Assembly: GCA_030272155.1 (NCBI GenBank)
Contig: CP126196.1
Coordinates: 4,526,501-4,590,500, forward strand
Direction of reading: 5' to 3'
From: Tetradesmus obliquus
Lineage: Eukaryota; Chlorophyta; Chlorophyceae; Sphaeropleales; Scenedesmaceae
Length of the DNA: 64,000 nucleotides
This document shows, piece by piece, positions 1,908 to 62,724 of the stretch. A model generated the notes under the pieces. The model did no database searches. It was not told the DNA's origin and saw nothing but the letters and a program-made list of their open reading frames with translations. The translations under genes were made by a program, and so were the position numbers. Within the stretch, counting starts at the first letter, position 1. Each line of letters opens with the position of its first letter.

Positions 1908-4242
1908 CTACTGCTGCTCCTCGGGCTGGCTGTACGCAAACGGCAGCTGCGCCTGACTCAACTGAGACAGCTGAGAAGGCAGCATGTCAAAGTCATCCAG
2001 TGGCACATCATCTGCACCGCCCTTGAGATCCAGATAGCCCTGTTGCTGTTGATGTTGCTGCTGCTGCTCCTCATCATCATCGTCCAGTTGCAGCACCAGC
2101 CGGGAACTGTCCAGCTCCCGCTGCCTCTTACGCCCCACCTGCTGTGGCTGCGTTTGCTGCTGCTGCTGCTGCATGTGTGGCCGCAATGACAGTGCGGGTG
2201 TCAGCACCATTGGTGATGCCAGCTGCTCCTGTACACCTTGCAGCAGCTGATCTTTCACCAACGGTGAGAGCGTCCTGGTGACGCTCATGCTGCTGCTGGT
2301 GCTGCGGCTGCTGAAGAGCCCATCTTGCTGCTGCTGCTGCTGCTGCTGCGGGCTGTCTGCGCGCTCACGCATCAGGCGCTGCAGCGCCGCCTGCAGCTGA
2401 CTGATGCTGCGGTTGATGAGGGCAGCATTGCGCTGGCAGTCCTTGGCAAGGTACATACGCATCTGCAACAGCAGCAGCAGCAGCAGCAACATCAGCAGGA
2501 GACAGCGCCACGAAAAGCAGCGGCAGCACAATCTATGAATAAGACGGCAGCACCAACCTCATCCTTGTGTAACTCTAGATGCACTGGAACAGGCCAAGCA
2601 GCTGGCAGCCCTGGATGAGAACATTGTCATGTGTCACGCGTTATTCCTGCCGGGTGACGGGTTGTATGTGCAGCGCTGACAATCAAGCAGCACCCACCAG
2701 GCGCTTGGAGAACACAACAGGCTGCTGCAGGCCCTCTTGTGCTGGCCGCGTGTTGAGATCAGCAGCATACAGCAGTTTGAATGCTAGCAGGTCCTGCTGC
2801 TTCCTGTACATCAGAGATCAGACGACAGCACCACAGCGCAACACACAAGTTGGTGACGCTCTGAGGTTCTTCAGGAATATGATTAAGCAGCAAGGTACAT
2901 TTTGCCTCAATACAGTTGCCTGCCAAAGTCGACGCCGATGTTTGTGCAGAACCAATGTGCACGCACCTCTATGGTAGCTGTCATAGCCTGCCCCAGCTGA
3001 AAAGCAATGCACTGGCATATGTGCCAGCAGTGAAACTTGACTTCAAGCAGCTGACATGCTACCCCGAGGTGCGAACGACATGACCAATGTAACACAGGCC
3101 CACCTGCCGTGGCCGATCTCAGCAATTACCACCCGGATGTCCTTTGCTGTTAGGTACTGGCAGTAGCCAGCCAGCTGGCGCTCGACCGTTGCACTGCTGC
3201 AGCTGAGCCGCCGGGGGTCCTGCAGGCAAGTTCAGAGTTTGAAACGGTTCATTGTCAGTTGGCCAGCAGCGCAGGCAATTCTGATGGGTCAGACTGGATA
3301 CACTGACTGCTGTGTTGAAGGTACTGCACGACAGCGCAACAAAACACTTGACAATATAATCCACGAGTTGCTCGCATCACGCTAGCGTAAACAGCGCAGC
3401 TGCTGCTACCCAGAACTCAGCAGCGCTCATCCAGCCAATGACATATAGATCTGCAGCCACTGAATTGCAGGAGCGCAAGGATGGCTCAACCGAAACCCCA
3501 CACCAAATCAAACCCTTACCCAGCCGGTGACGTCCAGCTCTGCAGCCATTGGGTAGTAGTCCCCTGCATCAGCACGCGCTAGGGTGCTCAACCCTACTCA
3601 AACCAGAACCAAAACCCTAAACTCCAGACCCTGACTCCCAACTCCTCACCCAGCCAGTCACGTCCAGCTCTGCTGCCATTGGGTAGTCGTCCCCTGCATC
3701 AGCACGCGCAAGGATGGCTGCTGCCTGCCGCAGGCTGGGGTCGCTGCTGCTGCTGCTGCTGCTGCTGTTGAGCAAGATGCCTTCCTGCCGTATGCGGCCC
3801 AGCAGGCTTTCATCTGACAGGGCGAGGAAGGAGGACGCACTGCAAAAAGGTGAACAAGCTGGAACACGAAGAGGTCAGGAAGGTGCATGCACCTGCGCAG
3901 GCGCTGCTGTGCGAAGAGGACAATCAGATGCATGCAGCCTGCGCAGGCGCTGCTGTGGATGGACAAGCAAGCCAGCAGCACATGTGCTGGTGAGGACACT
4001 GAAGGGTGAGCGAGAGGGCCTTTCCAACGTCCAATCCATGCAAAGCAAAGCATACGTATTTGATGTCAACGGCAGCTGGAGCTGCACACAGGCTGGTGAC
4101 TGCCGCTGCACATCACAAGACGGTGCATTCGAGCCCCGACACAACCTGTCAACGCTCCGCACCTGTCAGCCAGCTCTGGTATGTGCAGCATGTGGTTTGC
4201 AGCAAAACAGAGCGCCAGCCACCATGCGCTGAACTGCCCCGA

Positions 4243-4277
<35 letters not shown>

Positions 4278-6142
4278 GCTGCTGCTGTTGCTGCTGCTGC
4301 TGCTGCACTCCACTGCCCCAACCTGCTAAGACACCCATCCCCTCACACACCTTGAAGCCAGCTCTTGAATACGCAGCACGTGGTTTGCAGCAGTCAGTGC
4401 ATCCGCCACCATGCACTCGACTGCCTTGACCTGCTGCTGCTGGTACACCGTGTCGTGCATCAGCGCGCGTGCCTCAAACTGCGCAGCCAGCACAGACTGG
4501 GCTGACTCCGCGTAGCAGATTGTGTTTACGCCGTCGACTTCCAGCACCTGGGATGTTGTGACAAGCAGGCCTTTTGTTATAGTGTGGCTAACACAGGGTA
4601 GTACAGGATCTAGCAAGTTACCGAAAAGCTGGGCAAGCGCTGGCTGGGCTGACTCAGCGTGACAGTTTGCTTTCTCACCATTAACCAGCAGCTCCTGGGC
4701 TGCAGGGACAGCCAAAAAACCACAATGCGACAGTCACCAGCGCCAAGGTTCAGGGCAGCAGCAGGCAAGGCATCAAAGCTGTGCTGCACGTTGTTGGGGC
4801 GATAGCGCCGAGACAGATGTTGCCGGAGCTGCTCCTACCAGAGCTGCGCCTACCTTGGAGGCTCGTATGAGCTCCTACACGTCATAGTTGTGCTGCATGC
4901 CGGTTGTCACTGCGTCCCTCATCAGGTAGTCACCACGGTCCATGTCAACGTCACCAGCCACCACCTGCAACAAACTGTGTTATAACATGGTATGTGCATT
5001 CAAAGTAACATTTGTTTAGCAGCAGATAGCAGCAGATAAGATGTGCAGCCTGTCTTTCATCAAGTATTTATCACAATTCATCAAGTATGCCACCATCAAC
5101 CACACTCAGCCACGCACCGAGGGCAGCCACTCCTCCGCCCAAAAAATGGCCGGGTGTTGTTCCTCCTCGGATGATGTCCTTCACACGGCCCCACTGCTGC
5201 TGCGACAGGTCCAGGCTGCTGCTGTCTGCGATGTGGTCGATGAGCTGCTCTGACATGTCCTCGTGCTTCCTGTGCAGCGACAGCAGCAGCAGCAGCAGCA
5301 GTCGCAGCAGCGGCAGCGGCAGCAGCAGTGGCAGCAGCATGTACGCAGATCCAGCAGTTGACATCGAGGCACGTTCTGAGCAACAACCGCAGCGGCAGTT
5401 GCACACCCACATGAGATGTCTACCAGTGTCTGGCATGCGCATGCAGAACTAGCGTATACTTGCTGGACAGCAGTGCTGATGCCACATACATGTGCTGTTT
5501 CAACATTGTGCACCGCAGTCAACCCGATCAACTGTTGCTGGTGTCTCCATGAACAGTATGCAAAGCGTGTGCTGCTTTCAGCAGTACTCACCAGCCTGTC
5601 ACTCCCAGCCGTGGCAGAATCTGGCTTTCAAACACATGGCTGAAGGGGCCATGGCCCACATCATGCAGCAGGCCTGCATTTACAAAACACGTTATAACAT
5701 GTAGTTGACCAAGCTTTGCGGTTGATTACCAACGTCCCAGAGCATACATATGAGGCCCCATGTACACAACTCTACATGCAATCGTCTGGCACATGTTATT
5801 TCTGGCGGCAGAACCTCACCACAACCGGGCATTCCTTCGCTCACCGTGGTAGTACCAATGCATTGGTGCACTCTGTTGTTGCTTTTTGTACGACTGCAAC
5901 TCATGCACATTGCAGATCCTGGCACGCAGCAGCAGCATTCTCGCCGCCTCACCTGCCACCCCCAGCAGCATCAGGTCCTCAGCTGCTACATCCTTTGCCC
6001 CATTGCGGTGCAGCTGCATCCCACACTCGACAGCCAGGTGGGACACCCCAAGGGAGTGCTGATGCCGAGTGTGGGTGGCTCCAGGGAAGACCCAATTGGC
6101 ACAGCCCAGCTGCTTGAGGGAATCCATGCGGCGGACTGCAAC

Positions 6143-7300: not shown

Positions 7301-9598
7301 GCTGCTCCTGCTGCTGCCGCTGCTGCTGCTGCCGCCGCTGCTACCGCTTGCATTGCTGTCAGAGCAGATGACTCAAGGAAGGAACCTGTGAATGCCAATT
7401 TGCAGAGTTATGTGTTGCAATGAAGGTGCAACTTTTAGCGTGTAATAAGCGAATTTGGGAAAAGGAAGTGAGAGCAAGCCAAGAATGCTAGGATACTAAT
7501 GAGGGGGTCGCTTGGGATGTGCCTGCTGGTAAGCATAGTGTGCTGACGCTCATTGCACCACTTGGAAACGATATCCTAGCAAAGCAGAGCATGTGTGCTG
7601 TTGCTTCTGCAAGTCATATGTGTGTCAGACGTGACACAGGACAGCACCACTGCTGCTGCTGCTGCTGCTGCTGCCAGCAGCGGATACTGCTGCAACTCGG
7701 CCAGCATCCAACCCCTAGCACACGTCATCTTTGTCTGCACACTACAATGCAAGAGGCACCCACCAACCTCCTTCGTGCTCAGCGCCAGCAGAGGTATCTC
7801 ATGCTACTGCATGCCTCCTGCTGCTTGCTCCACCCTGGTTATTGTTGAACGACGACAAAATGAGTAGATTTAGTTGAATGTTACAATATTTTGAGTTCTC
7901 TCTCGCTCTTCGTCCACAAGCGTCTACTTCTGCCAGCGTACATGAGAATCTGCCGCGTACACGCCACGAGGTGAGCAAAAGAAGATACAAAAACGTAGCA
8001 TGACAGCAACAAAATCCTGTTATAGAATGAACAGGTCTGTCAAAGCATACGATATGGTACATTCTCAGGTTAGTCATCGGTAAACTGCCGGACAATCAGA
8101 GCCCTGCTCCTCGGCTGTCATGCTGCAGGTGATGTGTAGTTGTTTAGAGCGTTCATTTGCAAGTTGCGCCATCTGGGCAGTTGTTTGGTGAACACTGTTG
8201 CACAGAAGCAGCCCCGAGGCCTGCTTCACAGTGAACGTGTCAAGAAACAAGGTGACGTGTCTTTCAAAATCCTAATCAACCCCATATAAGGAAAGTTGCC
8301 GAATTGCATTCATTACAACCCCGTGACATACAACCAGCGGTGGAGGTTCAAGACCAACGTTTGGCATGCTTACTGTTGGAGATCAGCTGCAGCTGCTGCA
8401 TCCACTCGATGCAGGACTGTTGCAGTAAACTGCACAGCTGAGCACTGTTGTGCACCTGCCAACCACGTGCACGCTTCACCTAGCTGGCCAAACATTGCAT
8501 CCTCATGCCTGTGGTGCCATACTGCCATGATGCAGTGATGCGCCATACATATTGCCTGCTGTTAGCCCCTGCAATGCCACGCCGACCCCGTATCAAGTGC
8601 ACATGTACATGTGCACATGTGCACCTTGTACCAGGCCAAAGTCAACATATGCCCAGAAGGCCTGCGCCAAGCGCTGTCAGCACCACAATGATCCTGCAAA
8701 CACAGCAGGAGGCTACGCCACCAACCACCATCATGATGTGCAACTCTGGAATCATCCGGTCTGTTGCAAAAGGACCATTCACAGAGGCGCTGATACTGAC
8801 GTGCTGACAGGCCGCGCTGAAGCTGACACCACCCCCAGGCAGAACATGCAACGCTGCAGCATGACCAGACATCCACTGTCTTGAGATGGTCTCAGTACAT
8901 CGTCGGCAGATCCAATTCGAAAGGGCATCTGCATCTGCAGCATGCAGTTACGCTATGCGTGCTGGGAAGACATGCACACAGCCAGCTGCCAGCTGCAGCA
9001 GCAGCCGCCACAGCCTGCCTAGCGCACACACAGTGTCACAGCAGTGCAGCAGCCACGCAATCCTGCACGCATCCCATTTCACAACAGACAGCTGCATGCT
9101 AAAAACTCTGCAAACTCCCTGTCAACAGCTCTCCAATGCCTGCCTGCCAGCTGGCCTGATGCATCACCTCATGATGCTTATACACGGCATAACAGCAGAT
9201 GTGACAGCCGCAAGCACAACGCAGCACAAGATGTGCACACCATCACCACAGACGAATCTGCAGACACAGCAGCGGCGCAACACACTCGCGATGACCGCAG
9301 TCATTCAAAATAAAGCACTTCGCACTCGCATCAACCGGCCAGCACAGCACTCAAGACACCCACCAACAGTGCATACTCGCCCTTTCAAGCCCCACCCTAG
9401 AAATCCATCAACCTCGGGGAACCAGTCGCTGCACCTGATGCCGATCAAACCCACCCAGTGACCCTGTAACCACAAGCCTACTCCTCATCACACCACCATC
9501 ACCACCCCTGCTGCTGTTGCTGCATGCCAACTTAAACCCCAGCCGCTGCATAACTCAAACTTCCACCAACTAGGCAGCCGCCAAGACATACAACCCTC
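7301..9598. other. Intergenic region between two minus-strand genes
   Basis: This holds the 5' flank of the SAMHD1-like gene and the 3' flank of UROD. It includes a short CTG tract at 7652-7674 and a 20 bp perfect palindrome at 8597-8616. No exon could be recognised on either strand. Confidence 0.45.
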
Positions 9599-9737
9599 TT
9601 AGGCGGTCACCAGCTCTGCTGCCTTGATGCTCTTGCTGAGTGCAAACAATTGTGCCACTGCCTCCACTGGTGTGCCCACCAGCACACCATGCCCCAGGTT
9701 CAGGATGTGGCCCTTGCCGCCTGCCTTGACCAGCACA
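9599..9737 (-). repeat. Diverged duplicate of the UROD last exon, stop codon included
   Basis: About 139 bp closely match 9842-9979, the end of the real last exon, including [11 protein letters not shown] and the TAA stop. It lies downstream of the functional stop. It carries substitutions and a small indel. Confidence 0.9.
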
Positions 9738-9841
9738 CTTATACCCAAGCCACAGCAGCTGATTCACACCAACCGGACGCAGCCCGACAGCCTTCACATC
9801 CCCACCAACCTCTCTACAAAGCCCTCCCTGGTAGCATGCAC

Positions 9842-11335
9842 TTAGGCAGTCACCAGCTCCGCTGCCTTGATGCTCTTGCTGAGTGCAAACATGTGCGCCA
9901 CTGCCTCCTCTGGTGTCCCTACCAGCACGCCATGGCCCAGGTTGAGGATGTGGCCCTTGCCGCCCGCCTTGCTGAGCACGTCACGCACGGCAGCCTCGAT
10001 GGCTGCCTCCCCACAGAACAGCACTGTGGGGTCCACGTTGCCCTGCAGGCGGTAGTACATCATATGGATTCGGTTAAACGGGGAGTTGAGTGCAAGGGTA
10101 GTTCAATGAGTACGAAATTTACTGCAGTGGGCGCAGATGCAGTGGGTGCGCGCAAGGCAGCCTCGATGGCGGCCTCGCCGCAGAACAGCACCGTGGGGTC
10201 CACATTGCCCTGCAATACACAAGTAACGCAGTGGGTTGAGTCAGCATATTTGAGGTGCAGTGTGCACAGCTGCTTTGGCAATGCACAGCAGCCTCAACAG
10301 CGGCCTCCGCAGAACAGCACCGTGGGGTCCACATTGCCCTGCGGATTGCAGCACATACAGTGAACATGTGCACTGGGCACATATGCATCGCATGTGCACG
10401 GCGGCCTCGATGGTGGTCTCGCCGCAGACAGCACGATGGAGTCCAAGTCAGTCTGCGGCTGTTCCGTTGCTTGCCAAGCAGGTCCGCGGTACCATACATT
10501 GGCCGTATGCATATACACATGCCTTCAAAAGCGTCGCGGGGTCAGCGCCCTCCTGCAGACTGCATCAGATGCATTAGCGCAGCGGACAAACACACATTGG
10601 CATCGATCAACAACGGCCTCGCCACACCGCCCAGTGTGGCTCTCACCTGCACCGACTTGCTGCCCAGCCGCCTGCGTGCATCAGCCATGTCAACAGTCCA
10701 GTCCAGGCCCACCACATCAGCCCCAGTAGCTCCAAGGCGCTCCAGCAGGCCGCCGCTGCCATTGGCATACAGCGTGAGGGGCGTGCTGGGGTGCGTTGAC
10801 TTGACGCTCTCAATCACGCGCCGCAGGTAGGGGCCGGACCACCTGGAAAAGGCAGCAGCAGCAGCAGCAGCAGTGTTGATACACAGGCATTGAGCACTGC
10901 CCGAGCTTTGTGTAGAGCCGTTCATTGATCATGCACCCCAAATGCAATAACATACAACTTGTGGCTCCTTTCAAAATAGATGTAATAAGCAACAAGCCAT
11001 GTGACAGTACACAACCAGTAACATGAGCTCTACCTATTGCTTCAGATTAGCACTGAACTTTCGACTGCCGCGGCGGCAGCTGGCCGCTCCAGGAGTCGAA
11101 GATCTACCCACACTTTACACGCCTTTTAACAGTCACATAACACAACCGCAACACATCAAGTAACAGCCACTCACTTGTCCCACTGTGAGGGTGGCAGCTG
11201 GCCGCCCCACGAGTCGAAGATCTGCACGCACTGCGCGCCGCTGTCGATCTGGAAGCGGATGTAGTCCGCCATCGCGTCGGCCAGGTGGCTCAGCAGCGCG
11301 TCAAGCAGCGCAGGCTCGCTGTATGCCATAGACCT

Positions 11336-11389
<54 letters not shown>

Positions 11390-14060
11390 TGGGCGGAGGC
11401 GGCAGACGAACAATAAACAAGTCACGCACTGCTCAGCACCACATCAACACCCAAGGGAAGGGGACAGCATATGAGGACAGCCACATCACCGCCATCTTCA
11501 ATCAGCAGACGTATCAGCCGGGCTCACTTGATGGTCTTGTAGAGGCTGCTGCTGGCTCCCTCGATGATGTAGGTGGCAAGTGTCCAGGGGCTGCCCACAA
11601 AGCCTGGCAGCAGCAGCAGCAGCAGCAGTGACAGCACCATTATAGTTTCTGACTGGCTTTGCTACCAGCAGACACAGAATGCTGAAAGCCAGGCAGCTGG
11701 TACTGGCTGTGGAAAGGCTGTGGCCAAGCAGGTACCATTGCCGCAAGTGCCAGGCTGCTGCTGTGCCCAGCAAACTTGCTGCTGCTGGCCCGACACAGTG
11801 CAAATGCTAGCCGAATAAGCCCTCCACACAGGGACTGCTGCATCCGCTGTTGCTGCAATATCTGTCCAGTGCTGCTGCTGCTGCTCACCCAGCACTGCTG
11901 CTTGGTCCCCAACCTCCTGCCGCAGCAGCTTCAGCGACTCGCCCACAAACTGCAGCTGGGACAGGTCCAGCTTGTGCAGCTGCTTCAACTGCAGCAGCAG
12001 CAGCAGCAGTGGTAGCGGCAGAAGCAGCTAAGTAACACATGCAAGGGATCTCGTGCACGACAGTGACGCACATGAACAACTGCAAGAAGATCGAGTCAAT
12101 GAACAGCACTGTGCTGCCCCCTTGACGGAACCAACCGCTGCTGCAGTGCCGTGCTGTGCTGTGTTGCTGTGCTGTGCTGGGTGTTGCGCAGTGCAGTGCT
12201 GTGCTTGAACCCTAAACGCACCTGCTCCTTGCTGCGGATGGGGTTGTCCAGCAGGGGCCCCTTGTTGTCATCGATCTCAAAAGGCACGCCAATGCCTGGC
12301 AGGGGGGTCAGGATGTCGCTGAACAGGATGACGCCGTCAGGCTTGAAGCTGCGGAAGGGCTGCAAGCACAAATGCAGCAGCGGCAGCGGCAGGGCAACAG
12401 GAGCAGGGCATTGGCAATAGCTGTGAATCTGAACAGATGTATGCCATCAGGCTTGGAGCTGCAGAAGGGCTGCAGGCAGGCAAACATGCAGGCGTTGCAG
12501 GGGCAGAGTTTACATTTTATCATTGTGGTATGATAACAAGGGGGTCGGTTTTGCTGAACAGGATCACAACATCAGGCTTGAAGCTGCAAGAAAGTTGTGT
12601 AAGGGCAGCATCAGCAGGGGCAGAGTTGACACTAGCAGTCGCGGCAGCTTACGCAACAACCGCCCAGCTATGTAACGCGCGGTGTGTAACCTAGCCTGCC
12701 GCCTGCATGGAGGCTGACGTCAACGATGAGCTCGTCGCCTCAACCCACAAGCCATCAACAAGCACAACAGCAACCCACAAGCCATCAACAAGCACAACAA
12801 CAACCCACCCGCCATCAACAAGCACAACAGCAATCCACCCGCCATCAACAAGCACAACAGCAACCCACAAGCCATCAACAAGCACAACAGCAACCCACAA
12901 GCCATCAGCAAGCACAACACCAACCCACAAGCCATCAACAAGCACAACAGCAACCCACCTGCCATCAACAAGCACAACAGCAACACACAAGCCATCAACA
13001 AGCACAACAGCAACCCACATGCCATCAACAAGCACAACAGCAACCCACAAGCCATCAACAAGCACAACAGCAACCCACAAGCCATTAACAAGCACAACAG
13101 CAACCCACATGCCATCAACAAGCACAACAGCAACCCACAAGCCATCAACAAGCACAACAGCAACCCACAAGCCATCAACAAGCACAACACCAACCCACAA
13201 GCCATCAACAAGCACAACAGCAACCCACAAGACATCAACAAGCACAACAGCAACCCACAAGCCATCAACAAGCACAACACCAACCCACAAGCCATCAACA
13301 AGCACAACAGCAACCCACAAGCCATCAACAAGCACAACAGCAACCCACAAGCCATCAACAAGCACAACAGCAACCCACAAGACATCAACAAGCACAACAG
13401 CAACCCACAAGCCATCAACAAGAACAACAACAACCCACAAGCCATCAACAAGCACAACAGCAACCCACAAGCCATCAACAAGCACAACAACAACCCACAA
13501 GCCATCAACAAGCACAACAGCAACCCACAAGCCATTAACAAGCACAACACCAACCCACAAGCCATCAACCAGCACAACAGCAACCCACAAGCCATCAACA
13601 AGCACAACAGCAACCCACAAGCCATTAACAAGCACAACAGCAAGCACAACAGCAAGCACAACAGGACATAATTCAATGCCATGGTACTGCTTTCACCTGC
13701 AGGCTGATGTCCACGATGAGCTCTGTGGTCTCGCTGCGCTCCCTGAAGGAGGGGTGCTTGCGCGCCAGCTCGCGGTACGCTGCCTGGTACCTGCAGCAGC
13801 AGCAGCAGCAGCAGCAGTAGCAGCAGCGCAACGTAGCCGGCCAGTGCGAAAGAGTTGTGCTTGCGCGCCAGCACGCGGTTCGCAGCCTGGTACCTGCGGC
13901 ACGTCAGCCAGCACACAATTCACGCAACCAATGGCGCGCATGTCTGTGACGTTGATTGACATCAGGGCAACTGCGGCTGCATGACGCCTCAAGGGACAGC
14001 TGCTCGTGTACATGGATGCATGTGCTCAATTGTCTGTGTGCTGCCAAACCCGTAACACTG

Positions 14061-14106: not shown

Positions 14107-15508
14107 AAAGTCAACGCTTCAGGCAACATTGGAAACTGGAGACACCCGCCCACCAAAGCAGCTTCCTGAAACAGCAAGCATACTACAGAAGACTGCCATG
14201 GCCATGCTGTCAGCAGCGCTGCAACGCGCCGCCAACAGCAAGCAGCATGCAGGCGTCTGCACCACACCAGCAGCAACGACACAACACAGCAGCAACAAAT
14301 TACAGCAGCACCTGCTGGCATACTGCTGCAACACGCCGCAATGAGCGTCTCTGTAAAGCTGAATCTGCACCTGCATGACCCTGCACGACCCTGCAGGAAC
14401 CTCCCTGCCAGCAGCAGCAACAGAAAGCAACCAGACTACCCATCACATGCGCCAGGCCAGGTTCCTGTATACAGGTGTATGCAGATGTGTTGAATGCTGC
14501 AACTACGACACCTAAGCAGCAGTGGCAGCAGCAGCAGCTGCATAACAGCCAGCACCACCTCAACTTATGCTCCTTCCGTGCCAGCTCTGCTGAAGATGCC
14601 ATGCAGCTGCTGCCGACCTTGCTGCGCACACCCCCAGCTGCTGCAGGTGCTACAACAAATCAGCAGCCCAAAGCAGCTGCTGCACACCTGCTGAGCCAGC
14701 TGCAACACACCTCCTGCTGCCCTTGCAGGAACAGCAAAGCAGGACGGCAAATCCACCCACCTGCCGGCCTGTCTCTTCATCCGGCAAGAAGCTCAAACGC
14801 TACAACACCCAGCAGCATCACATCTGCTGCTGCCCTTGCAGGAAACAGTGCTGCCCTTGCAGGAAACATTGCTGTCCCTGCAGGAACAACAATGCCAGAC
14901 CCACCTGCCGGCCTGCCTCATCATCCAGCAAGGAGCACAACCGCTACAACACCCAGCAGCAGCACACCCACTGCTGACTCTGTCACACGGGACACCACTG
15001 CCACATGTCCACCCACCTGCTGGCTTGCCTCATCAAACAGCAAGGGGCCCAACTGCTGCTGTCCTGCATATAACACGCGATAGCGGAGACAGCACCCACA
15101 TGACGACCTGCCTCATCAGCCGACACACCTCGCTGCGGCAAGGGCTACAACAAAGACTGCTATCCTCACAAGAGAGTGACGACGAAAACAGCACCCACCT
15201 GCCAGCCTGCCTCATCATCCAGCAAAAGCACAACCGCTACAATACCTAGCAGCATCACACCTGCTGCTTCCCTTGCACAAAACAAATTGCCAATGCCAGA
15301 CCCACCTGCCGGCCTGCCTCATCATCCAGCAAGGAGCACGCTCTGTTGCCTCGCCACGTGCTGCCCTCACCATAAGGGGTGCGTCTGCAACTGCCGGCGC
15401 TGCTGCTGCCTGCGCCCGCACCACCACTGCGCGCCTGCTGCTGGCAGCTGGCCGCGCCGCGCTGCTGCGCAGCTGCTGCATCTGTTGCTGCATGGTTGCT
15501 GCTGACAT
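9842..15508 (-). CDS. UROD: Uroporphyrinogen decarboxylase, plastid type
   Basis: Decarboxylates uroporphyrinogen III to coproporphyrinogen III in heme and chlorophyll synthesis, in the plastid stroma. Exons: 15508-15306, 13790-13697, 12359-12222, 11988-11889, 11603-11528, 11333-11175, 10842-10647, 10042-9842. These give 1167 nt, 388 residues, in frame at every GT/AG junction. The N-terminus ([20 protein letters not shown], then Ala/Arg-rich) looks like a chloroplast transit peptide. Family signatures follow: MRQAGR at 63-68 split by intron 1, FSDIL with the catalytic Asp114, PWTLATY with Tyr190, [13 protein letters not shown], and HILNLGHG with His359. Length is normal and all key residues are present, so the gene looks functional. 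Introns 1, 2, 6 and 7 contain echoes of adjoining exon edges, and intron 2 holds a 30 bp satellite. It is divergent from the trigger factor gene. Confidence 0.96.
10150..10450 (-). repeat. Three echoes of the UROD exon 8 acceptor edge
   Basis: Copies at about 10150-10213, 10288-10343 and 10394-10450 match the start of exon 8 ([18 protein letters not shown]) together with the preceding CAG. They decay with distance: the nearest is near identical, the second has lost bases, and the third reads only partly. All are upstream of the real exon on the coding strand. Confidence 0.88.
11058..11235 (-). repeat. Echo of UROD exon 6 donor edge
   Basis: About 45 bp of exon 6 encoding [11 protein letters not shown] (around 11187-11235) recurs in the next intron at about 11058-11105 as [10 protein letters not shown]. 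Confidence 0.8.
11336..11388 (+). repeat. CAG/CTG tract at UROD exon 6 acceptor
   Basis: About 17 triplets. On the UROD sense strand it reads CTG and runs directly into the TAG acceptor of exon 6. Confidence 0.9.
12319..12593 (-). repeat. Three copies of the UROD exon 3 acceptor edge
   Basis: The real edge is at 12319-12359. Echoes lie upstream in intron 2 at about 12429-12475 and 12551-12593. They share the codons for FKPDG with drift at flanking positions. Confidence 0.78.
12742..13664. repeat. 30 bp tandem satellite, about 30 copies, in UROD intron 2
   Basis: A 30 bp unit is repeated head to tail for about 0.9 kb with roughly one change per unit. On the plus strand it contains CACAAGCCATCAACAAGCAC. 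Since 30 is divisible by three and the unit lacks stops in several frames, long meaningless frames ([10 protein letters not shown] and similar) run through it on both strands. Its left border at 12701-12742 is an echo of the UROD exon 2 donor edge (13696-13735), so the array sits between an exon end and its duplicate. Confidence 0.93.
13745..13898 (-). repeat. Echo of UROD exon 2 acceptor edge
   Basis: The exon 2 start ([15 protein letters not shown], up to 13790) is repeated upstream at about 13848-13895 as [15 protein letters not shown], with its own CAG just before the copy. Confidence 0.88.
14745..15355 (-). repeat. Six copies of the UROD exon 1 donor edge
   Basis: The real donor is at 15305/15306. 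Echoes occur near 15190, 15100, 15010, 14900 and 14755, at about 90-145 bp spacing. Each carries 30-40 nt encoding MMRQAGRW-like residues and a GTGGGT or related donor. About 49 bp starting at 14889 and at 15292 are identical, so at least one duplication or conversion is young. Beyond about 35 nt into the exon the copies switch to a shared intronic sequence, so the unit is intron plus exon end. Confidence 0.92.
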
Positions 15509-18031: not shown

Positions 18032-18340
18032 AAGGGTGGTGCGTGAGCTGCTGCCTGCTGACAAATTGAGCCTGACGTCAGGTAATGGTCAACCATCACA
18101 AACCCCAACCACTGATGTGCATCCCAGCTTGCTTGTCACATCGTGCTGCTGCTGCTGCCGCTGCTGTCCTCAGGTGGTGCGTGAGCTGCTGCCAGCTGAC
18201 AAGGTCAGCCTGACCATCACAAACCCAAACCACAAACCTGCATCCCAGCTTGCTTGTCACACTGTGCTGCTGCTGCTGCTGCCGCTGCTGTCCTCAGGTG
18301 GTGCGTGAGCTGCTGCCTGCTGACAAGGTCAGCCTCACCA
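18032..18340 (+). repeat. Three copies of a trigger factor acceptor edge
   Basis: The segment encoding VVRELLPADKVSLTI, with a preceding CCTCAG acceptor in the last two cases, occurs at about 18034, 18176 and 18298. Only the third continues into the full exon. The first abuts a possible upstream exon end. Confidence 0.9.
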
Positions 18341-46093: not shown

Positions 46094-47711
46094 ATGGCAG
46101 CAGCAATGCAAAAGATCAGGGCATTTTACGCAGCAAATAAGCATTGCGTTGCTGGCTGCCCAGTGCGCGTGGTGGTGAGCACTGCACGCAGCAGTACACC
46201 TGAGCAGCAGGAGCCTACGTGTCCAGCCGGCATGTTCTGCTGCAGCGGTAATGAACTGCATGCACAATTATCATGTGTCTCTGATACATCACTGTGTAAC
46301 CCGGGAATTCCATCGATCTCAGCTCACATGACGCTCTTGGTATAACCTTCTGCTGTTGGTGTGGTTGCTTGCAGGCACCCCACTTGCAGCGCCCTGCTGT
46401 TCGCTGCAGCAGCGCCAGCAGCATTAGCAGCATCGCATGCCCCACCTCACAGCGTAGTTTAGAGCAGCAGAGGAGGCAGGTGGCATGCAACTACTCAGGC
46501 AGCCGGGAGCTCCCGCGTGTGGCGTTCTTTGGCAGGCAGGAGGACCCAGACCTGACAGTAGCTAAGCTGCAGGTGCGCCTGCTGAGCTGCGGTTGGAAAA
46601 ACATTGCAGGATCACTGCGCATGTGTAGATGCTATGTTTTGTCTTTGTGAGGATGTTCACAGCACAGCAGCAAGGCACTGCTTTGCGCGCAAGGATATGC
46701 CTGCAAGCAGTTGCAGTTGCTGCTTCAATCCACTCCTCGCCCTATCTGCTGGAGCTGGCGCTGGCGCCGCTGCCTGCCGGTGCAGATCCCTAACCCCCCT
46801 GCGCCTAAACCCTTGTCTAACAGAGCTATTGCTGCGCCTCAACCCTTGTCTAACAGAGCTATTGCCGTGGCCAAACCCCGTTGTGCTGCTGGTTGGCGTT
46901 TTTGGCCAGGTGGAGAAGTTTCCGCGCCAGTTGGGCCACACCAATGTACCCAATACGCTTGGTACACGGTAAAACCCTTTGCTGTGCTGTGCTGAAAACC
47001 CTTTGAAACCTTTGCTGTGCTGAACCCTTTGCTGTGCTGAAACCCTGCTGCCGCAGGTGGGCGTGTTTGGCCAGGTGGAGAAGTTCCAGCGAGAGCTGGA
47101 CCGTATTGCCAGCCTGCTGGACAGCGATGATGAGGAGGCCATGGGCGAGCTGGTGCACGGTGCGCGGGGTTGATATGACATATGTATAATCATCAAATTT
47201 CACACTTACATAGCAGTTTTTGTAATGTTGCTCAGTAGTAATAAAGCAGATGCAGCGGCGTTTCATAAGAATAGCACTTCACCTCATCAGGACTGAGTCA
47301 ACAATGTGGCTTTCCAGCCATTGCCAGCCTGGGAATCGATGATGAAGAGGCCATGAGCGAGCTGGTGCATGGTGCGGGGGCTGAGGGTTCTCAGACACGT
47401 AGGTTGCTGATTATATCGATTAAGATGACAAGAACTATTAGACGCAGCGGTGCTAACCGCATCCGAAGTGATTCAACAGCAGTGGTGCTGCTGGTCGTGG
47501 CTGCGCCATGATAACAGAGCACACGCACAGCTGCATTCATACATACTGCGCGGCACTGCTGCTGGAACCGCGCCACTACTGCTGCTGTGCTGCTGCTGCT
47601 GTTTGTTTTTGCGCCTGCAGACGTGGTGTTCCTGTCAGACAGCCTGGCGTACTGCTCCCACGGCCGCATCGCTGTTGCTGCTGCTACTCTTGCCGCTCAA
47701 CATCCACTTCG

Positions 47712-47766: not shown

Positions 47767-48778
47767 ACAGACGTGGTGGTGTTCCTGTCCCGCAACCTGG
47801 AGTACTGCAGCTACGGCGCCAGCAGCCTCTTCCTCACCGACGACTTTGACGAGCTGGAGCAGAAGTACAACCAGGTGGGGCAATTGAAAAGTCAGCAAGA
47901 AATGAGGAATTGTTGTGCAGTGATTCGAGTTTGTGCAATGACAGTGGCGACTTTGACGAGCTGGAGCAGAAGTACAACCAGGTGGGGGTGGGCTGTGCAC
48001 GCTTTTTTGAAAGGGCATTGCTGTCGAATGAAAAGCCTGTATGATCTAAAAGGCATATGCCTTGTGCTGATGACTGTGACGAGCTGGAGCAGAAGTACAA
48101 CCAGGTGGGGCTTCAGGGCAGGATTTACTGCCTAACCCATATTGTGTTCTTGGTCACTTGGCCGTGCTGAGGTTTGTGCATTGATTGTGATGACAACTCT
48201 GACGAGCTGGAGCAGAAGTACCACCAGGTGGGGCTGATGCAGGGATTCCTGCGTCAAACAAACAGCCTGTTTCCACACGACCAGGTGGGGCCCATGTGTC
48301 AGATCCTTGCATGAAAAGCTCAGACTACTGCAGGGTGTGATAAGCGTAGCAGGAGCAACTGCGTAGGGTGTGCCAGCATGCTTGCAGACTTACTAAATGG
48401 GCGACTCAGTTCTCAAATGTACCATGCTGCTGCTGCTTGCTGCACGCAGGCCAGCATCAACGAGCGAGCCAAGTTCAAGGAGGAGACGCTGAGCAATGTG
48501 GGCGGCCGCGTGCTCACCACATCACTCAAGGAGAGTGGCGCAGGTGGGCAGCCTTTTGCACGGTGTTGGGCAGCAGCTGAGGTATTGGTGTGCGGCTGCT
48601 CAATATAGAAGCATATCGCACGGGCAGCAGTTGATGGCAGCTGCTTGGCCGTCACATGCTGCTCTCATATACACCACTCACATGGGGCTCTTGCATTGCG
48701 GATGATTTACGACACATCCATCCCATCCACACAATTGATCGATCTGTCACTGTGCACAACTGTATGTTCTGACGTTGT

Positions 48779-48834
<56 letters not shown>

Positions 48835-49538
48835 GCAGACGTGGGCCTGGACAAGTGGCTATGCGTCAGTCCCTCCCCTCCGTATTTGTCACCTGAGCTG
48901 TTGCTGCAATCTTCATAACCTGCTATGTGTCGTTTGTCTGCTGCTGCCGCAGATGTGGGCCTGGACAAGTGGCTGTGCGTCACGCTCATCATGGCTGCTG
49001 AGGCCGAAGTGAAGCTGCCCAAGATCCGCAGCCTCGCGGTGCGTGCTGCTGTGATCTGCATGTACGTTGGTGCTAGTTTTAAGGGAGAGTAGCGTGTTGC
49101 TGCAGCTGCAGTCGCTTGCTGGTTTATTCCCGCAAGTGCTGTGGCTGCAGATCTGCCGTTGCTTGCAAGTTCATGTTTACATGGGCGGGTTATCACCATG
49201 CCGTGCTGACGCCGCCGCGTCTGCTCCTGTTTTGCTACACTATTCACCTTTCTTCACCTCACAGGACCTGCAGCAGTCGCTGAGCCTAGGCAGCCTCCCT
49301 CCTGATGCCATTGCGGCTGTGGAGCTGACAGTGCTGCTGCTGCTGCTGCTGCTGCTTTTGTCATCGTCGTGCTGTTGGTCTGTGTTTGTAGGATCTGCAG
49401 CAGTCGCTGAGCCTGTTGGGCAGCCTCCCGCCTGATGCCATCGTGGCCGTGGAGCTGCTGTGGACCCCCCAGGAGTCTGGAGACAGCTACAGCAAGGACG
49501 AGCTGCTGCGCGACTACCCCAAGCTGGCCAACCTGTAA
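46094..49538 (+). CDS. DUF1517 (PF07466) protein, FLAP1-like, probably plastid
   Basis: Exons 46094-46174, 46375-46572, 47057-47159, 47771-47874, 48450-48543, 48953-49038 and 49392-49538 join in frame to 270 residues ending in TAA. Family landmarks in order: VFGQVEKFQRELDRIA, the SRNLEYCSYGASS turn, INERAKFKEETLSNVGGR, LDKWLCVTLIMAAEAEVKLP, LLGSLPPDAIVAVELLWTPQ, SKDELLRDYPKLANL. The plant homologue with this domain (Arabidopsis FLAP1) acts in acclimation to fluctuating light at plastid membranes; the same role is inferred here. The N-terminus is basic and Ser/Ala-rich like a transit peptide. The first exon is the least certain, chosen because its GTGAGC donor keeps phase. Echoes accompany almost every exon. 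Confidence 0.87.
46812..47095 (+). repeat. Echoed acceptor and simple repeats before DUF1517 exon 3
   Basis: The exon start at 47057 (VGVFGQVEKF) has an echo at about 46893-46925 (VGVFGQVEKFPRQL). Between them lie short tandem units, CTTGTCTAACAGAGCTATTGC-like twice near 46820-46863 and AAACCCTTTGCTGTGCTG-like several times at 46970-47045. Confidence 0.82.
47105..47385 (+). repeat. Echo of DUF1517 exon 3 donor edge
   Basis: The exon end (IASLLDSDDEEAMGELVHG plus GTGCG) recurs at about 47320-47378 as IASLGIDDEEAMSELVHG. Confidence 0.85.
47618..48290 (+). repeat. Echoes on both sides of DUF1517 exon 4
   Basis: Acceptor side: 47620-47665 (DVVFLSDSLAYCSHGRI) mirrors the real start at 47771 (DVVVFLSRNLEYCSYGA), each after a CTG-rich tract. 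Donor side: FDELEQKYNQ with GTGGGG at 47874/47875 is repeated at about 47948-47985, 48075-48112 and 48195-48232, and partly near 48278. The copies keep the CCAGGTGGGG donor. Confidence 0.9.
48779..48985 (+). repeat. CTG tract and echoed acceptor of DUF1517 exon 6
   Basis: About 17 CTG triplets (48780-48832) run into GCCGCAG and an echo of the exon start (DVGLDKWLCV becomes DVGLDKWLCVS). The real exon follows at 48953 with the same GCCGCAG acceptor. Confidence 0.88.
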
Positions 49539-49762
49539 GGTTTTGCACTAGAGGCTGAACCCTTGGGTTTGAATCAGAGGCTGTGTGGGGGAGACAGCTA
49601 CAGCAAGGACGAGCTGCTGAGCGACTACCCCAAGCTGGCCAACCTGTAGGTTTTTGAATCTAACGTAAAACATTACGTGATGGCGGCAGCTGCAGCAGGC
49701 GGGAGAAGGTTACAGCACGGAGTAGCTGCAGAAAGGAACCTCCCAAGCTGGTTCACCTGTAG
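49258..49762 (+). repeat. Echoes on both sides of the last DUF1517 exon
   Basis: Acceptor side: 49262-49330 (DLQQSLSLGSLPPDAIAAVE) precedes the real 49392-49455. Stop side: GDSYSKDELL-DYPKLANL with its stop is repeated at about 49588-49650 (near identical, ending TAG) and in decayed form at about 49695-49762. Confidence 0.92.
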
Positions 49763-53180: not shown

Positions 53181-56087
53181 ATGGCTGCCGCTGCTGCTGC
53201 TGGCGCCAGCCATCATTGCCTGCCATGCGCCTCCAGACAGCACACTCTTTCAATACGTAAGCAAACGTTGAAGATTTCATCAAAGGCCAGCATAGCTCCA
53301 AGACAGTGTCGGCATACCCAGTTAGCCTGCAGCAGCTTGCGCCCTGCAGCTGCTGTTGCCAACACGCGGCTACTTGAACCCGCAGCAGTGGTCGCAGCAG
53401 CAAGCAGCACATCAGCAGCAGCACCTGAAGCTGGCGGACTCAACAGCAGGACCAGCAGCAGCAAGCAGGCTTTGCAGGACAGCAGCGACTGGCAGCAGCC
53501 GCTCCTGCAAAGCTTGCAGGACCCGCAGCAGCTAGTGCGCCTCACTCTGAAAGCCAAAATAACGACGAAGCCGGAGCAGCAAGTAGCAAACGTCAGCGAC
53601 AAGGCAGCAGCTTCCATCAACAGCAGCAGCAGCAGTGGCAGCAGCGGTTCTGTGGCTGCTGCTGCTGCAGCTGCAGTGGCAGCTGGCACTATGCCTTTCA
53701 AGCAGATGACTGTACGGCCTGTGATGCTCAAGGGCAAGCTGCTGGTGCAGATGTCAGTGTTGGACTCCCGCCAGGTGGTTATAAACGAGTTTGAACCCCA
53801 GATACGACAAGCTGAATTAAAGGGGGCCACCACTGATGTCACTTGGCAGTGGAGGCTGTTGATTGCACTGCATTAACGTGCCATTGCGGCACCTTGATGC
53901 GCCGCCAGCCAGCACTGTTTCAGCCAAACTGCACCCACATATGTTCAGACAATGAAAATCATGTCTGCAATCACTTATCCGTTGCTGCTGTGGCCCACTT
54001 GCAGGACACCACCAAGAACTACAGCCCCCAAGAGGCCGCAGAGCAGCTGCAGCAGCTGCTGCGCCTGCCGTGGCACAGCGGCTCACTGCAGACCCTAGCA
54101 TCCACCACCACCATCCAGGTCTCTCGCAAGGGCAAGGTTCTGCTGCAGACAAAGCCTAACCCAGCAGCAGCAGCAGCAGCGGATGCGGCCAGCCTCCCAG
54201 GACCCCTCAGCAGCAGCAGCAGCAGCAGCAGCAGAGGTCTAGCTCCAGCAGCAGCAGCAGCTGGTGCTGCTGGTGGGCTGATCTCGCTGCAGCATGACAG
54301 GGCCAAGGCGCTGCCCATCAACGGCAGCATCTCGGACCCTTTCCTGCAAAGGATCGGCCTGCAGACAGCAGACGGGCGCGTCAAGGCATCCATGCAGGTG
54401 CGCGTATGACACTGATGTAGCTAGGCCAACAGGCAAAGAGCATGAATGGGCCGGCCCAAGGGCTGAAGACAGAGAGAACGATGGTGACCTGTGTGCGGCT
54501 GTCAGTGGCATGAACTGCATGTTCGATGTCCCAAGCATGCTGTGTTGCTTGCAGGTTTCCAACGCTCTTGCAGGATGCAGGAAGCTTGGACATTCCACCA
54601 GTCAGAACCTGACCGTGCCTTCAGTAGTGCTGATGCTGCCGCTGATGCTGCCCATGGTGCCCCTGCTGCTGCTGCTGCTGCTGCAGGCCAAGTTTACGCA
54701 GATCAACGAGTTCCTGAAGCTGCTCATACACACAGGGCAGCTGGAGCACATGGAGCAGCAGCAGCAGCAGCCAAATCCCAGCAGCAGCAGCAGCAGCAGC
54801 AGCGCATTACATGTGCTGGACTGCGGCTGTGGCTCCTCACATCTCACCTTTGGCACGCTGCACTACCTGCACCATGTGCGGGGCCTGCCCGTGCAGCTGA
54901 CAGGCATAGACACAAATGCAGCACTCATGCAGCGCAGCAACCGCTACTGCGCGGACTTGGGCATATCTGACGTGGCGCAGTTCCACACAGCAGCGATCCG
55001 CAGCTATGAGCCGGATACAGCGCCTGATATAGTGCTGGCGCTGCATGCATGTGATACTGCAACCGATGAGGCACTTGCACTGGGAGTGCGCTTGGGAACC
55101 GGCGTGATCATGTCTGTGCCGTGCTGCCAGAAAGACCTGCACAGGCAGCAGGCGGCGGCCCAGCAGCAGCAGCAGCAGCAGCGGCCGGGCAGCAGCAGCA
55201 GCAGCAGCAGCAGCAGCGTAAACGGGGAGCTGTTTGACCCGCTGCTGAGTCACGGCATCTTGCGGCAGCGCATGCTGGACTTGCTGACGGATGGCTTCAG
55301 GGCGCAGCTGCTGCAGCTGGCTGGCTACAGGTGAGCACAACACAGCAAAACCTCACAACAGCAGATGCAGGCGCAGCCCAAAGGGTTGCTGCAACATATG
55401 TGGCTGTCATATTGCTGCATGTCTTGCAACGCATTAGCTGGTTACAGGTCAGCAAGGCGGATATACACAACACCGCAGCCAACTGCAGCACATGTTTGTG
55501 CTTCCATCTGGCATATACAGTGCTGCTGTCTTATTGCACCTCTTGCAACACAAAGCAGCGTTGAATTGTTTGGCTGAGGCAGTGCTGACAGACGTCACTG
55601 GTCCTGCACACCACTGCATTTATGTGTGGCATGTCGCAACCGCACATTTGTTATGACATCGAGCTGTTACAACCTCACAGCACACACTGTCAGCAGTGCC
55701 AGGCCAAGTTGATAATGAAACACTCTGTGGAAATCTGCGGCTGGTGCTGCGCTTGCAGGACTGACGTGGTGGAGTTTGTTTTGTTGGAGCATTGCAAACT
55801 TACAAACCCTGATCACTCCTGGTTGTAACAAACCCCCGTTTTATACCCGGTTCTTGACACCCACCTGCCCCCTGTCTTGCAGGACTGACGTGGTGGAGTT
55901 TGTGTCCACGGAGCACACGCCGCGCAACCTGCTCATCCGCGCGGTGCGGCAGCAGCGGCCGCTGCCAGAGGCTGACCTGACAAGGCTTGCAGGGCAGTAC
56001 AGTGCTCTGAAGCAGTACTGGGGCGTGACGCCACACCTGGAGAAGCTAATGCGGGAGGATGGCACACTGCCTGCTGTGCTGCAGTGA
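53181..56087 (+). CDS. SAM-dependent methyltransferase, Methyltransf_32 (PF13679) type
   Basis: Exons 53181-53774, 54005-54397, 54687-55330 and 55883-56087 join in frame to 611 residues. The N-terminus (MAAAAAAGASHHCLPC, then Ser/Arg-rich) could be an organelle-targeting sequence. The core matches bacterial-type class I methyltransferases of this family: IGLQTADGRV, KFTQINEFLKLL, SAM motif I LDCGCGSSHLTFGTLHYL near 373-390, LTGIDTNAAL, DIVLALHACDTATDEAL, the cysteine pair in VPCCQKDLHRQ, and DVVEFVSTEHTPRNLLIRAV. The substrate is unknown; relatives are suspected RNA or protein methyltransferases. Poly-Gln/Ser/Ala inserts interrupt the conserved blocks, as CAG tracts do inside exons elsewhere here. 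The gene looks intact. Confidence 0.88.
55755..55920 (+). repeat. Echo of the last methyltransferase exon, acceptor side
   Basis: CTTGCAGGACTGACGTGGTG and a following TEH-like stretch occur at about 55754-55795 and again at the real exon start 55883. Confidence 0.9.
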
Positions 56088-56470
56088 TGTGGTACCCGGC
56101 CACACTGCTGCTGCAAACGCCGTGCTCTGCGAACGCCATGGGTGTGCAACATGGCTTTGGTTTTGGCGTTATTGTGTTTTTTTCTGGTTGTGTCAGTGCT
56201 CTGAAGCAGTACTGGGCCGTGACGACACACCTGGAGAAGCTCATGCGGGAGGACGGCACACTGCCCGCTGCGCTGCAGTGATGCAGCACCCTGCCGCACT
56301 GCTGCTACAAACGCCGTGCTCTGCCACTACTGTGCAACGTGGCCGTTCGTTTGGCATATTGTGTGTTTTGCTGGTTGTGTCAGTGCTCTGAAGCAGTACT
56401 GGGGCGTGACGCCACACCTGGAGAAGCTAATGCGGGAGGATGGCACACTGCCTGCTGCGCTGCAGTGACC
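56000..56470 (+). repeat. Three tandem copies of the methyltransferase C-terminus with stop
   Basis: The last about 85 bp (SALKQYWGVTPHLEKLMRED to LQ-stop) occur at 56002-56087, 56197-56282 and 56383-56468. Spacing is about 190 bp, with about 100 bp of 3' flank included in each unit. All three stay in frame and end in TGA; only a few positions differ. Confidence 0.95.
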
Positions 56471-60600: not shown

Positions 60601-61277
60601 CAGGGTGCGAAGGCGGTACTGCTGGCGGCGCCTGCCACTACTACAGGCTACTATGTGAGTCCTTGTCGAGTGACGCATGTGTGTGCAGCTGCTTGTTGTT
60701 TCTGATGTGCCGTCCTGCTTTTGAGGTGCTGTGATAGTGCTGCAACCACCACAGGTGACTATGTGAGTCCACTGAACACCACGTCAAGTCACACAGACAC
60801 ACTGAGCTGTTCATGCTTAATGTGCCTTCCTGCCTTTGTGGTTCTGGAACAGGGCTGCCTTGATGTTTTCTGCACTTGCCGCTCCCGCCATCATATCCTG
60901 GAGTTGTGATTTGACCATGGCAGCTCTTGTTTCCTGAACTTGTGGTCTGGCCTTCAAGCTGCTGCTGCTGCTGCCGCCGCTGCTGCTGCCGCCGCCGCTG
61001 CTGCTGCTGCTGCCAGGGTTCTTTTGGCTTCGAGAGTCCCTCCAGCTGCAGGACACGCCGCTCATTGCCGGTGCTACAGCTATCCACATGACTGCGAGTT
61101 TCACTTCTTCCTGCTGCTGCTGCTGCTGCTGCTGCTATTGTGAATGCAGGATTCCTTTGGCTTTGAGAGCCCCTCCAGCTTCCAGGATATGCCCCTTATT
61201 GCCAGCCTTGACTGCATCAGCTTCAACTGCAGCTGCTGGGCCCGGCTGAACCCTGAACTTTTGGTCTGACAATTTCT

Positions 61278-61326
<49 letters not shown>

Positions 61327-62724
61327 GGGCTCCTTTGGCTTTGAATCCCCCTCCAGCTTCCAAGACATGCCGCTCATTGCCAGCCTGGACTGCAGCAGCT
61401 TCACCTGCAGCTGCTGGTTAACTTGTTGTCTGACCATCCCTCCTCCTGCTGCTGCTGCTTCTGTTCTGCTGCTGCCAGGGTTCTTTCGGCTTTGAGAGCC
61501 CCTCCAGCTTCCAGGATATGCCGCTCATTGCCAGCCTTGACTGCAGCAGCTTCAACTGCAGCTGCTGGGCCCGGCTGCGCGGCATCCAGCGCCCGCCAGT
61601 GACCGGGTTGAGCCTGGGTCAGTATGCAGAGGTGAAGGCGGCACTGACGGCGGCTGGCAAGGCGGGCAAAGCATACACCGGCACGCTGGAGTCGCGGGTG
61701 AGTGAGGTTTTGTGCACCTCTGCAGCTGACCATGATTTGATTGCCATTGCCTGGTGCAGCGGCACACTGGAGTCGCGGGTCAGAGCTGGCGCATCTCTGC
61801 TAGAGAAACTGGATCTTTGGACTCCATCAGTTGCCATCCCGCATCAACTCGTAACAAGTAGCGCATGGCAGACATCATACATACATACTGTCGCGGTGCA
61901 GAGGTAGAGGTATGCTTTTGATGGCGGTGAAAACAAATGCACCTACAGTTTCTGATTATTGCTAACGGCAAGCATGTGTGCGTGTGTTGCAATCATCATC
62001 ATGTTACCATTTAAGCCATAGCAACGTCGCCATCGGCCCCGTGTGTTGCAATGCTTGCAGGAGGACTTGTACCAGCGGCTGTCAGGCACCAGCATGGTGA
62101 GTGGCAGCAGCAGCAGCAGCAGCAGCAGCCTCTCGCCACTGGTGCAGCAACCTAAACAATGCTGCTTGCTTGCTGTGTGATTTCCATACAGCAGCAACAG
62201 CAACTTGCGCCGCTATGCAGCACAGCAGCCTGCGGCGCAAGCACTTGACACAGCAGCAGCAAGGCACAGCAGGTGGCATGCATTTAAGTACCTGGCAATG
62301 CTGCAGCCACTGCCAGCAAGCTATCACTCTTACTTGCTGCCGCTGCTGCCGCTGTTGCGCTCACACTGCTGTTACATGTTACACCCTTGCTGCTGCTGCT
62401 GCAGGCTGTGCCGCACGTCTCTGGTGCCATTGCACGTGTGTGGTCTGCATTCCCCGGCTGCAACGCCAGCAGTGTGCGGACAGCCTTCCAAGAGTCAGCA
62501 TTGGACCTTGGGCCAAAAGGCTTTGATGTGCAGTATGGCTATGGCCTAGTCCAAGCAGAAGCAGCGTATGATTACCTGGCGAGGCAACCATGTGCAAAGG
62601 GGTGGGCATTGTCATCACTTGCGCAGCAGGCTGCAGCAGCAGATGCAGCAGACAAGGCGGCTGACAAGGGTCAGAGCAGCAGTGGTGGCAGCACAGGGCT
62701 GGCTGAGGCCACTGGCAGCAATGC

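Follow-up and report, generated by a model that had tools for sequence, protein, structure and literature searches.

Local direct repeats at exon edges and stop codons in a 64-kb window of the Tetradesmus obliquus genome

The window analysed here is the 64-kb stretch at positions 4,526,501–4,590,500 of Tetradesmus obliquus contig CP126196.1 (contig C6 in this study), part of a eukaryotic genome of 104.66 Mb in 17 contigs. It contains many local direct repeats in which the start or end of an exon, or the coding sequence leading up to a stop codon, recurs in the adjacent intron or 3′ flank. These partial copies, or echoes, are a real feature of the DNA. Within a repeat unit, the alignable coding part is denoted e and the spacer between e copies is denoted J. 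The best explanation, at somewhat less than even odds, is recurrent tandem duplication followed by decay of the non-coding parts, with exchange between the coding parts and the selected exon preserving their similarity. All comparisons were made within this one genome: the window against itself, 20 arbitrarily placed 10-kb loci at fixed positions (e.g. 1,000,001), the UROD loci, 20 kinesin loci and a kinesin ladder on contig C2, with a 264-kb sample in total for non-redundant pairs.

Self-comparison of the window returned 92 direct and 2 inverted near matches within 1.5 kb, and the 20 arbitrarily placed loci returned 134 direct and 4 inverted near matches within 1 kb. CAG/CTG-rich matches were removed before sets were counted, which left 89 direct matches and 1 inverted match within 1 kb in the window, forming 44 separate sets. 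Five dinucleotide shuffles of the window produced no local direct-repeat sets. These counts uphold the local, direct, tandem-type duplication described in an initial annotation. Its figure of more than 40 exon-edge sets is confirmed only in part: 31 of the 44 overlap a coding-like segment, 30 are candidate echo sets once a coding repeat array at 1–737 is excluded, and 13 have no contact with a recognised coding segment. In the window, 19 pairs with an identity of 87% or higher could be typed by eye as exon-edge or stop echoes. The array at 1–737 consists of tandem 84-bp coding repeats (NLQTLDLSGNTIGDAG), presumably leucine-rich-repeat-like, which lie inside coding sequence and form no echo.

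Coding regions were found by coding-segment scoring. Ab initio gene prediction with a model trained on the sample was dropped, as it took echoes and CAG tracts for exons. The gene names UROD, DUF1517, methyltransferase, subtilase and HIT domain are supported, the SAMHD1-like name has a sub-threshold HD match only, and a Pfam search gave no match for the gene called trigger factor in the initial annotation.

Repeat pairs were typed by eye, by seeking a splice motif or a stop near the block end. From 57 non-redundant blocks of at least 88% identity, including those at the UROD and kinesin loci, 38 were typed and 19 were left untyped; together with two further pairs, this gave 40 typed pairs (22 acceptor, 14 donor and 4 stop). 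Of the two copies, the one that runs on as coding sequence lies downstream in 19 of 21 acceptor pairs and upstream in 16 of 18 donor or stop pairs, and two of the four exceptions (39371 and 48062) compare an echo with an echo. The initial annotation had stated that acceptor echoes always lie upstream of the true exon, and donor and stop echoes always downstream; this geometry is found in 35 of 39 testable pairs rather than in all.

The tie to coding edges was measured against a coding map built independently of the repeat pairs. A block was assigned to an edge when at least half of it lay inside a coding segment and its end fell −4 to +25 bp from the segment end. By this rule, 26 of 63 blocks with an identity of 87% or more fall at a coding-segment edge, compared with a mean of 6.3 (standard deviation 2.5, maximum 15) in 1,000 circular shifts of the map, an excess of about fourfold. 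Of all 128 non-redundant pairs in the 264-kb sample, 60 reach the end of a segment, compared with 27.1 expected. The contrary case raised in the initial annotation, in which duplicates are equally frequent away from exon edges, therefore fails, though 27 of the 63 blocks lie outside any recognised coding segment. These 27 blocks represent either exons that went unrecognised or duplicates of non-coding DNA.

In the 40 typed pairs, homology reaches 21–138 bp into coding sequence and continues past the coding edge for a mean of 6.5 bp (median 6, maximum 22), a sharpness for which the Kolmogorov–Smirnov value provides no independent test, owing to typing by eye. Among all 36 coding-overlapping blocks of the 63, the non-coding overhang has a median of 10 bp and a mean of 20.5 bp. 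In four of four stop-codon echoes, the block ends 0–7 bp past the stop, which suggests that the boundary that matters is the coding edge itself. The similarity score of the flanks beyond the edge is independent of the typing cut. In the 50 bp that follow on the non-coding side, 39 typed pairs score 8.46, compared with 8.77 for out-of-register controls from the same intron, and single flanks score higher (21 at 18035, 14 at 56000 and 14 at L021 5475). An apparent similarity of intron flanks relative to the flanks of other genes (9.2 versus 7.7) was gone when within-intron controls were used.

Many high-identity pairs are short, spanning 28–67 bp at 95–100% identity with offsets of 107–140 bp, and pairs with zero or one difference stand beside unrelated spacers (47841, 55752, L018 1337 and L020 591). 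Such near-identical pairs call for recent copying or conversion. Contiguous homology occurs only in the longer arrays and in the C2 ladder. Plain contiguous duplication predicts that homology length equals offset, and the blocks are far shorter. The initial proposal, tandem duplication of a segment spanning an exon boundary, is therefore unsupported in its simple contiguous, random-segment form, given the short blocks and their unrelated flanks; direct orientation, geometry, edge excess and unit size all agree with it.

For adjacent blastn offsets the median is 143 bp and the middle half spans 122–205 bp; 70 of the 136 fall within 100–150 bp and none below 60 bp. This spacing bears out the proposed unit size of one to two hundred bp, and offsets of 100–150 bp also occur in 27 of the 40 typed pairs. 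Shorter-period arrays detected with Tandem Repeats Finder are of another kind. The echo sites of the window, followed by two arrays from other loci, are listed below.

3514..3716, minus strand: donor echo in the SAMHD1-like gene, true copy 3644–3716 and echo 3514–3586, 90% identity over 73 bp, offset 130 bp, 6 bp past the junction, by eye.
9598..9979, minus strand: stop-codon echo of the UROD C-terminus, true copy 9841–9979 and echo 9598–9736, 89% identity over 139 bp, offset 243 bp; homology ends 1 bp past TAA, and 42 codons hold 9 synonymous and 5 replacement differences.
9984..10445, minus strand: UROD exon-start echo set, a 17-residue start repeated upstream of the real exon at offsets of 167, 246 and 298 bp.
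13745..13901, minus strand: UROD acceptor echo, 87% identity, offset 103 bp.
14696..15339, minus strand: UROD-region repeat set that includes a typed donor pair (15193–15225 and 15300–15332), 97% identity over 33 bp, offset 107 bp.
18035..18344, plus strand: acceptor ladder of three copies in the gene initially called trigger factor, offsets 138 and 262 bp.
19235..19405, plus strand: acceptor echo in which AG is now CG, 93% identity, offset 127 bp.
19940..20220, plus strand: donor ladder of three copies, e about 55 bp and spacer about 58 bp, typed by motif only.
21042..21266, plus strand: donor echo (LEKEKFFFDTDADMLDLTD), 91% identity over 78 bp, offset 147 bp, 12 bp past the junction.
21612..21874, plus strand: acceptor echo, 97% identity over 32 bp, offset 231 bp.
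21921..22394, plus strand: donor ladder of four copies.
22866..23553, plus strand: repeat set with a typed acceptor pair (23204–23304 and 23453–23553), 89% identity, offset 249 bp.
23554..24087, plus strand: four-copy donor ladder (RMEDVERQLTQEGLDAFIESE), unit about 142 bp.
39323..39899, plus strand: repeat set with an acceptor pair typed by motif only, offsets 145–465 bp.
40036..40841, plus strand: repeat set with a donor pair typed by motif only, 92% identity, offsets 167–617 bp.
47105..47384, plus strand: DUF1517 repeat set with the exon-end motif DDEEAMGELVHGA twice, 87% identity, offset 215 bp.
47839..48236, plus strand: four-copy donor ladder (DFDELEQKYNQVG) whose 40-bp exon ends are nearly identical and whose spacers are mutually unrelated; echoes are 93–100% identical to the exon, spacers 49–52% and random pairs 51%.
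48824..48982, plus strand: acceptor echo, 96% identity, offset 114 bp.
49263..49457, plus strand: exon-start repeat in the DUF1517 gene, 87% identity, offset 127 bp.
49479..49656, plus strand: DUF1517 stop-codon echo, 96% identity over 67 bp, offset 111 bp, ending about 7 bp past the stop.
55752..55903, plus strand: acceptor echo in the methyltransferase gene, 100% identity over 28 bp, offset 124 bp.
56000..56468, plus strand: methyltransferase stop-codon ladder of three copies, e about 88 bp, spacers 106 and 99 bp, block ending at the stop codon; the first and third copies are 99% identical over 88 bp.
L042 537–876: e-J array of three copies, e about 60 bp, J 79 bp.
L018 1572–1978: e-J array of five copies, e about 63 bp, J 23 bp.

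Longer sets often have the form e-J-e-J-e. The arrays for the e-versus-spacer and flank tests were hand-chosen. In 13 of them, echo–echo identity was 0.88 in e and 0.70 in spacers, with e higher in 12 of 13 (P = 0.0005), a contrast that favours e in that e is defined as the alignable part of the array. When two doubtful arrays were dropped (L016, for which the real copy is unknown, and L019b, with spacers of 181 and 67 bp), the remaining 11 gave 0.90 in e and 0.73 in spacers, with e higher in 10 (P = 0.002). In 10 of 10 hand-chosen arrays, the outermost flank resembles the inner flanks less (mean score 9.0, two at 13 and 16) than the inner flanks resemble one another (24.3). Incompatible site pairs, found in two of five arrays, hint at exchange. 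The spacer of the methyltransferase acceptor echo (55780–55875), the one spacer tested, has only its self-match in the 104.7-Mb genome; for this one spacer, a mobile element, or the dispersed repeat family expected of introners and other transposon-made introns, found no support.

On contig C2, a kinesin exon (L049/L050) is preceded by six further copies of approximately its first 72 bp together with the CTG-rich end of the intron. The resulting ladder has seven copies with units or spacings of 123–141 bp, each comprising the intron end and 72 bp of exon. Its echoes are nearly identical to one another; compared with the nearest of them, the real exon has three silent changes and a difference at the last compared base. 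The outermost copy also carries a CTG-rich intron end, which matches simple tandem duplication, and this young ladder looks like a tandem duplication of intron end and exon start.

Differences between copies fall 209/187/360 across the three codon positions in 125 partly redundant matches. Expected replacement:silent ratios were derived for a free echo and a fully constrained exon, with the substitution spectrum taken from non-coding columns. The observed ratio was 1.06 compared with 1.36 expected in 87 pairs (P = 0.004), 0.72 compared with 1.38 in the 30 pairs of at least 87% identity (P = 0.0007) and 1.18 compared with 1.35 in the 57 more diverged pairs (P = 0.11). Diverged echoes look mostly free of selection, and close ones carry fewer replacements than this model predicts. 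The initial proposal that every gene has ladders of competing splice sites is not supported as it stands: a stop codon in one copy occurs at 6 of 1,527 aligned codons, compared with approximately 13 expected for a free echo, and two echo acceptors lack AG (19235 and L001 892). Exact exon swapping by splicing was rejected as a role for the echoes, being feasible in 3 of 39 pairs, about as in controls (6%).

It is proposed that small tandem duplications, with a unit typically of one to two hundred bp, would be frequent in many genes, and that those including a coding edge would be tolerated, as the old protein could still be made with the original splice site or stop. The copy remaining in the intron or 3′ flank would be the echo. 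The non-coding part of each unit would then diverge until unrelated, and the coding part e would stay similar, one copy being under protein selection and the e segments exchanging by short-tract gene conversion. Unequal exchange would expand some sets to e-J-e-J-e. The duplications may arise from fill-in at staggered breaks, to judge from the accessible text of PMC8355091. Of the readings weighed, duplication combined with exchange covers the largest number of facts, and the ends of all four stop echoes support it, since a stop-codon boundary should be invisible to splicing or DNA processes.

Its weak points are the missing flank homology, a weak gap-free contrast and a deficit of replacements, and further observations also weigh against it. 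Flanks diverged twice as much as the block would be expected to score approximately 33, far above the value observed, and the intron-side flanks of the typed pairs retain, as a group, no residual ancestral non-coding homology. In gap-free columns, identity is 0.90 in e and 0.83 in spacers, and e is higher in just 8 of 11 arrays (P = 0.024). The contrast shrinks without gaps, and much of the e-versus-spacer difference therefore consists of insertions and deletions; confidence in duplication with exchange was accordingly lowered from nearly even to its present tentative level, and plain duplication and echo function were each raised slightly. Replacements are scarcer than conversion with a free echo predicts: the replacement:silent ratio is 0.83 compared with 1.39 expected in 26 pairs whose genes have homology support or curated segments (P = 0.0016) and 0.60 compared with 1.36 in 27 typed pairs (P = 0.00009), and pair dN/dS is 0.17 in the 27 typed pairs and 0.27–0.32 otherwise, below an expected floor of approximately 0.5. 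Blocks of 28–60 bp are short for gene conversion. The sharp boundary arises partly by construction, since pairs were typed for an edge near the block end, and 7 of the 36 coding-overlapping blocks extend more than 40 bp outside coding sequence. The other three of the five arrays examined for incompatible sites have no informative site pairs, and CTG repeats weaken the inference from the C2 ladder.

The typed pairs with a sharp edge, unrelated flanks and near-identical copies, and the single-copy status of the one tested spacer, would also fit a one-step process, such as template switching or RNA-linked repair, that pastes 20–140 bp of coding sequence up to its edge, without intron, into non-coding DNA some one to two hundred bp away. 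This process is nonetheless unlikely, as a stop codon should mean nothing to a process acting on DNA or RNA, yet four of four stop echoes end there, and the young C2 ladder contains intron sequence. Offset also shows only a weak correlation with block length (0.26), as a fixed unit would give, but 25 pairs are too few to decide much. Plain tandem duplication of random segments with neutral decay, in which edges are merely the tolerated, slower-decaying subset, would yield direct repeats, regular spacing, contiguous arrays and a codon-position pattern roughly that of free echoes, and it would accommodate both the 27 blocks outside coding sequence and the seven that run far beyond it. It is judged distinctly unlikely in view of unrelated flanks beside 95–100% identical blocks, e exceeding spacers between echoes (more weakly without gaps) and the roughly fourfold edge excess; as the whole story it is strongly disfavoured by the flank scores, unless introns change many times faster than echoes.

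The replacement deficit raises the prospect that echoes are conserved for a function, as alternative exon ends or splicing decoys. The ratios below the free-echo expectation in the full, close and typed samples, and the low pair dN/dS, point that way, but the diverged pairs depart little from expectation, precise exon swapping is possible about as often as in controls, in-frame stops and lost AGs are present, and selection alone cannot yield identical silent sites beside unrelated spacers; the prospect is accordingly improbable. Intron birth by tandem duplication (the Rogers model), in which one exon's donor aligns with the next exon's acceptor, belongs to a duplication type published for single genes, as described in the accessible parts of PMC4974935 and PMC3443670. 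It is very improbable here and was rejected, since no donor-to-acceptor alignment was seen by eye among the 40 typed pairs, the 19 untyped blocks lying outside this check. A broader proposition is doubtful: that the genome continually copies coding edges into the non-coding DNA beside them, with breakpoints at the coding edge, so that many genes have rows of near-identical pseudo-edges that stay in step with the real exon as a supply of spare splice sites and stops.

Echoes are unevenly distributed across the genome. Two to nine sets occur in 12 of the 20 arbitrarily placed loci (L014–L016 and L018–L026, on C4–C6 and C8–C16), and 0 or 1 set in the other eight (L009–L013, L017, L027 and L028, on C1, C2, C3, C7 and C17). 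The pervasiveness claimed initially therefore does not extend everywhere. Kinesin loci are poor on all contigs, with sets in 2 of 20. A strict contig effect, with C1, C2, C3, C7 and C17 echo-poor, was rejected as not absolute, C2 having the kinesin ladder. Gene, region or contig could each underlie the patchiness in this small sample.

UROD matches occur at three places in the genome (C4, C6 and C13), all three with local direct-repeat sets (L001–L005 and L008). Between UROD exons of the window, at 12741–13643, lies a 30-bp minisatellite of approximately 30 copies that are 94% alike; it is open in several frames, with 10-residue repeats on the plus strand. Near inverted repeats number two in the window, one of 30 bp with 100% identity and one of 70 bp with 96%; their arms interleave within 43938–45573, about 1.6 kb overall, and they are possibly a transposon remnant. 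CAG/CTG microsatellites are very common across the window, some of them, by eye, directly before splice acceptors, where they might serve as the pyrimidine tract. Longer satellite-like arrays have units of about 191 bp (L014 1–1135) and about 350 bp (L026 4086–6039), with no visible tie to exon edges.

In the concerted evolution of tandem duplicates, homologous parts are kept alike by exchange, usually between whole genes. The arrays resemble such systems in that homologous parts are more alike than their neutral neighbours (e above spacers in 10 of 11 hand-chosen arrays, 8 of 11 gap-free), but their units are exon fragments of 20–140 bp. In the tandem genomic duplication model of intron gain (Rogers 1989), as set out in the accessible text of PMC3443670, duplication of an exonic segment with AGGT gives a new intron. 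The echoes share with that model a short tandem duplication within a gene, tolerated since splicing restores the message; here, in contrast, it is existing edges or stops that are copied, into introns or 3′ flanks already present, with no new intron demonstrated. In potato RdRp, according to the available portion of PMC4974935, tandem duplication across an intron–exon boundary created a new intron in one event in one gene, whereas dozens of sets per 64 kb are found here, some of them ladders, and typed pairs retain little beyond coding sequence. Fill-in at paired breaks likewise yields short direct tandem duplications (insertions below 100 bp, with tested overhangs down to 43 bp), but those duplications have no link to exon edges in the accessible text of PMC8355091.

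No report of genome-wide exon-edge echoes was found among the matches listed in the PubMed Central literature, with most subscription papers and preprints outside its scope, and the accessible part of the Haematococcus genome paper (PMC7617258) does not describe them. The novelty may lie in scale rather than in kind, namely in density and ladders; coding-edge precision would also be new, if upheld by an untyped genome-wide test. For gene annotators the echoes carry a warning, as programs based on coding potential take them for exons. Intron lengthening, shifts of exon boundaries and intron origin have so far been argued mostly from single cases. A genome with several duplications per 10 kb in many regions, of mixed ages and partly in ladders, would make the size and fate of such mutations, competition between splice sites and exchange between repeats of 30–100 bp measurable.

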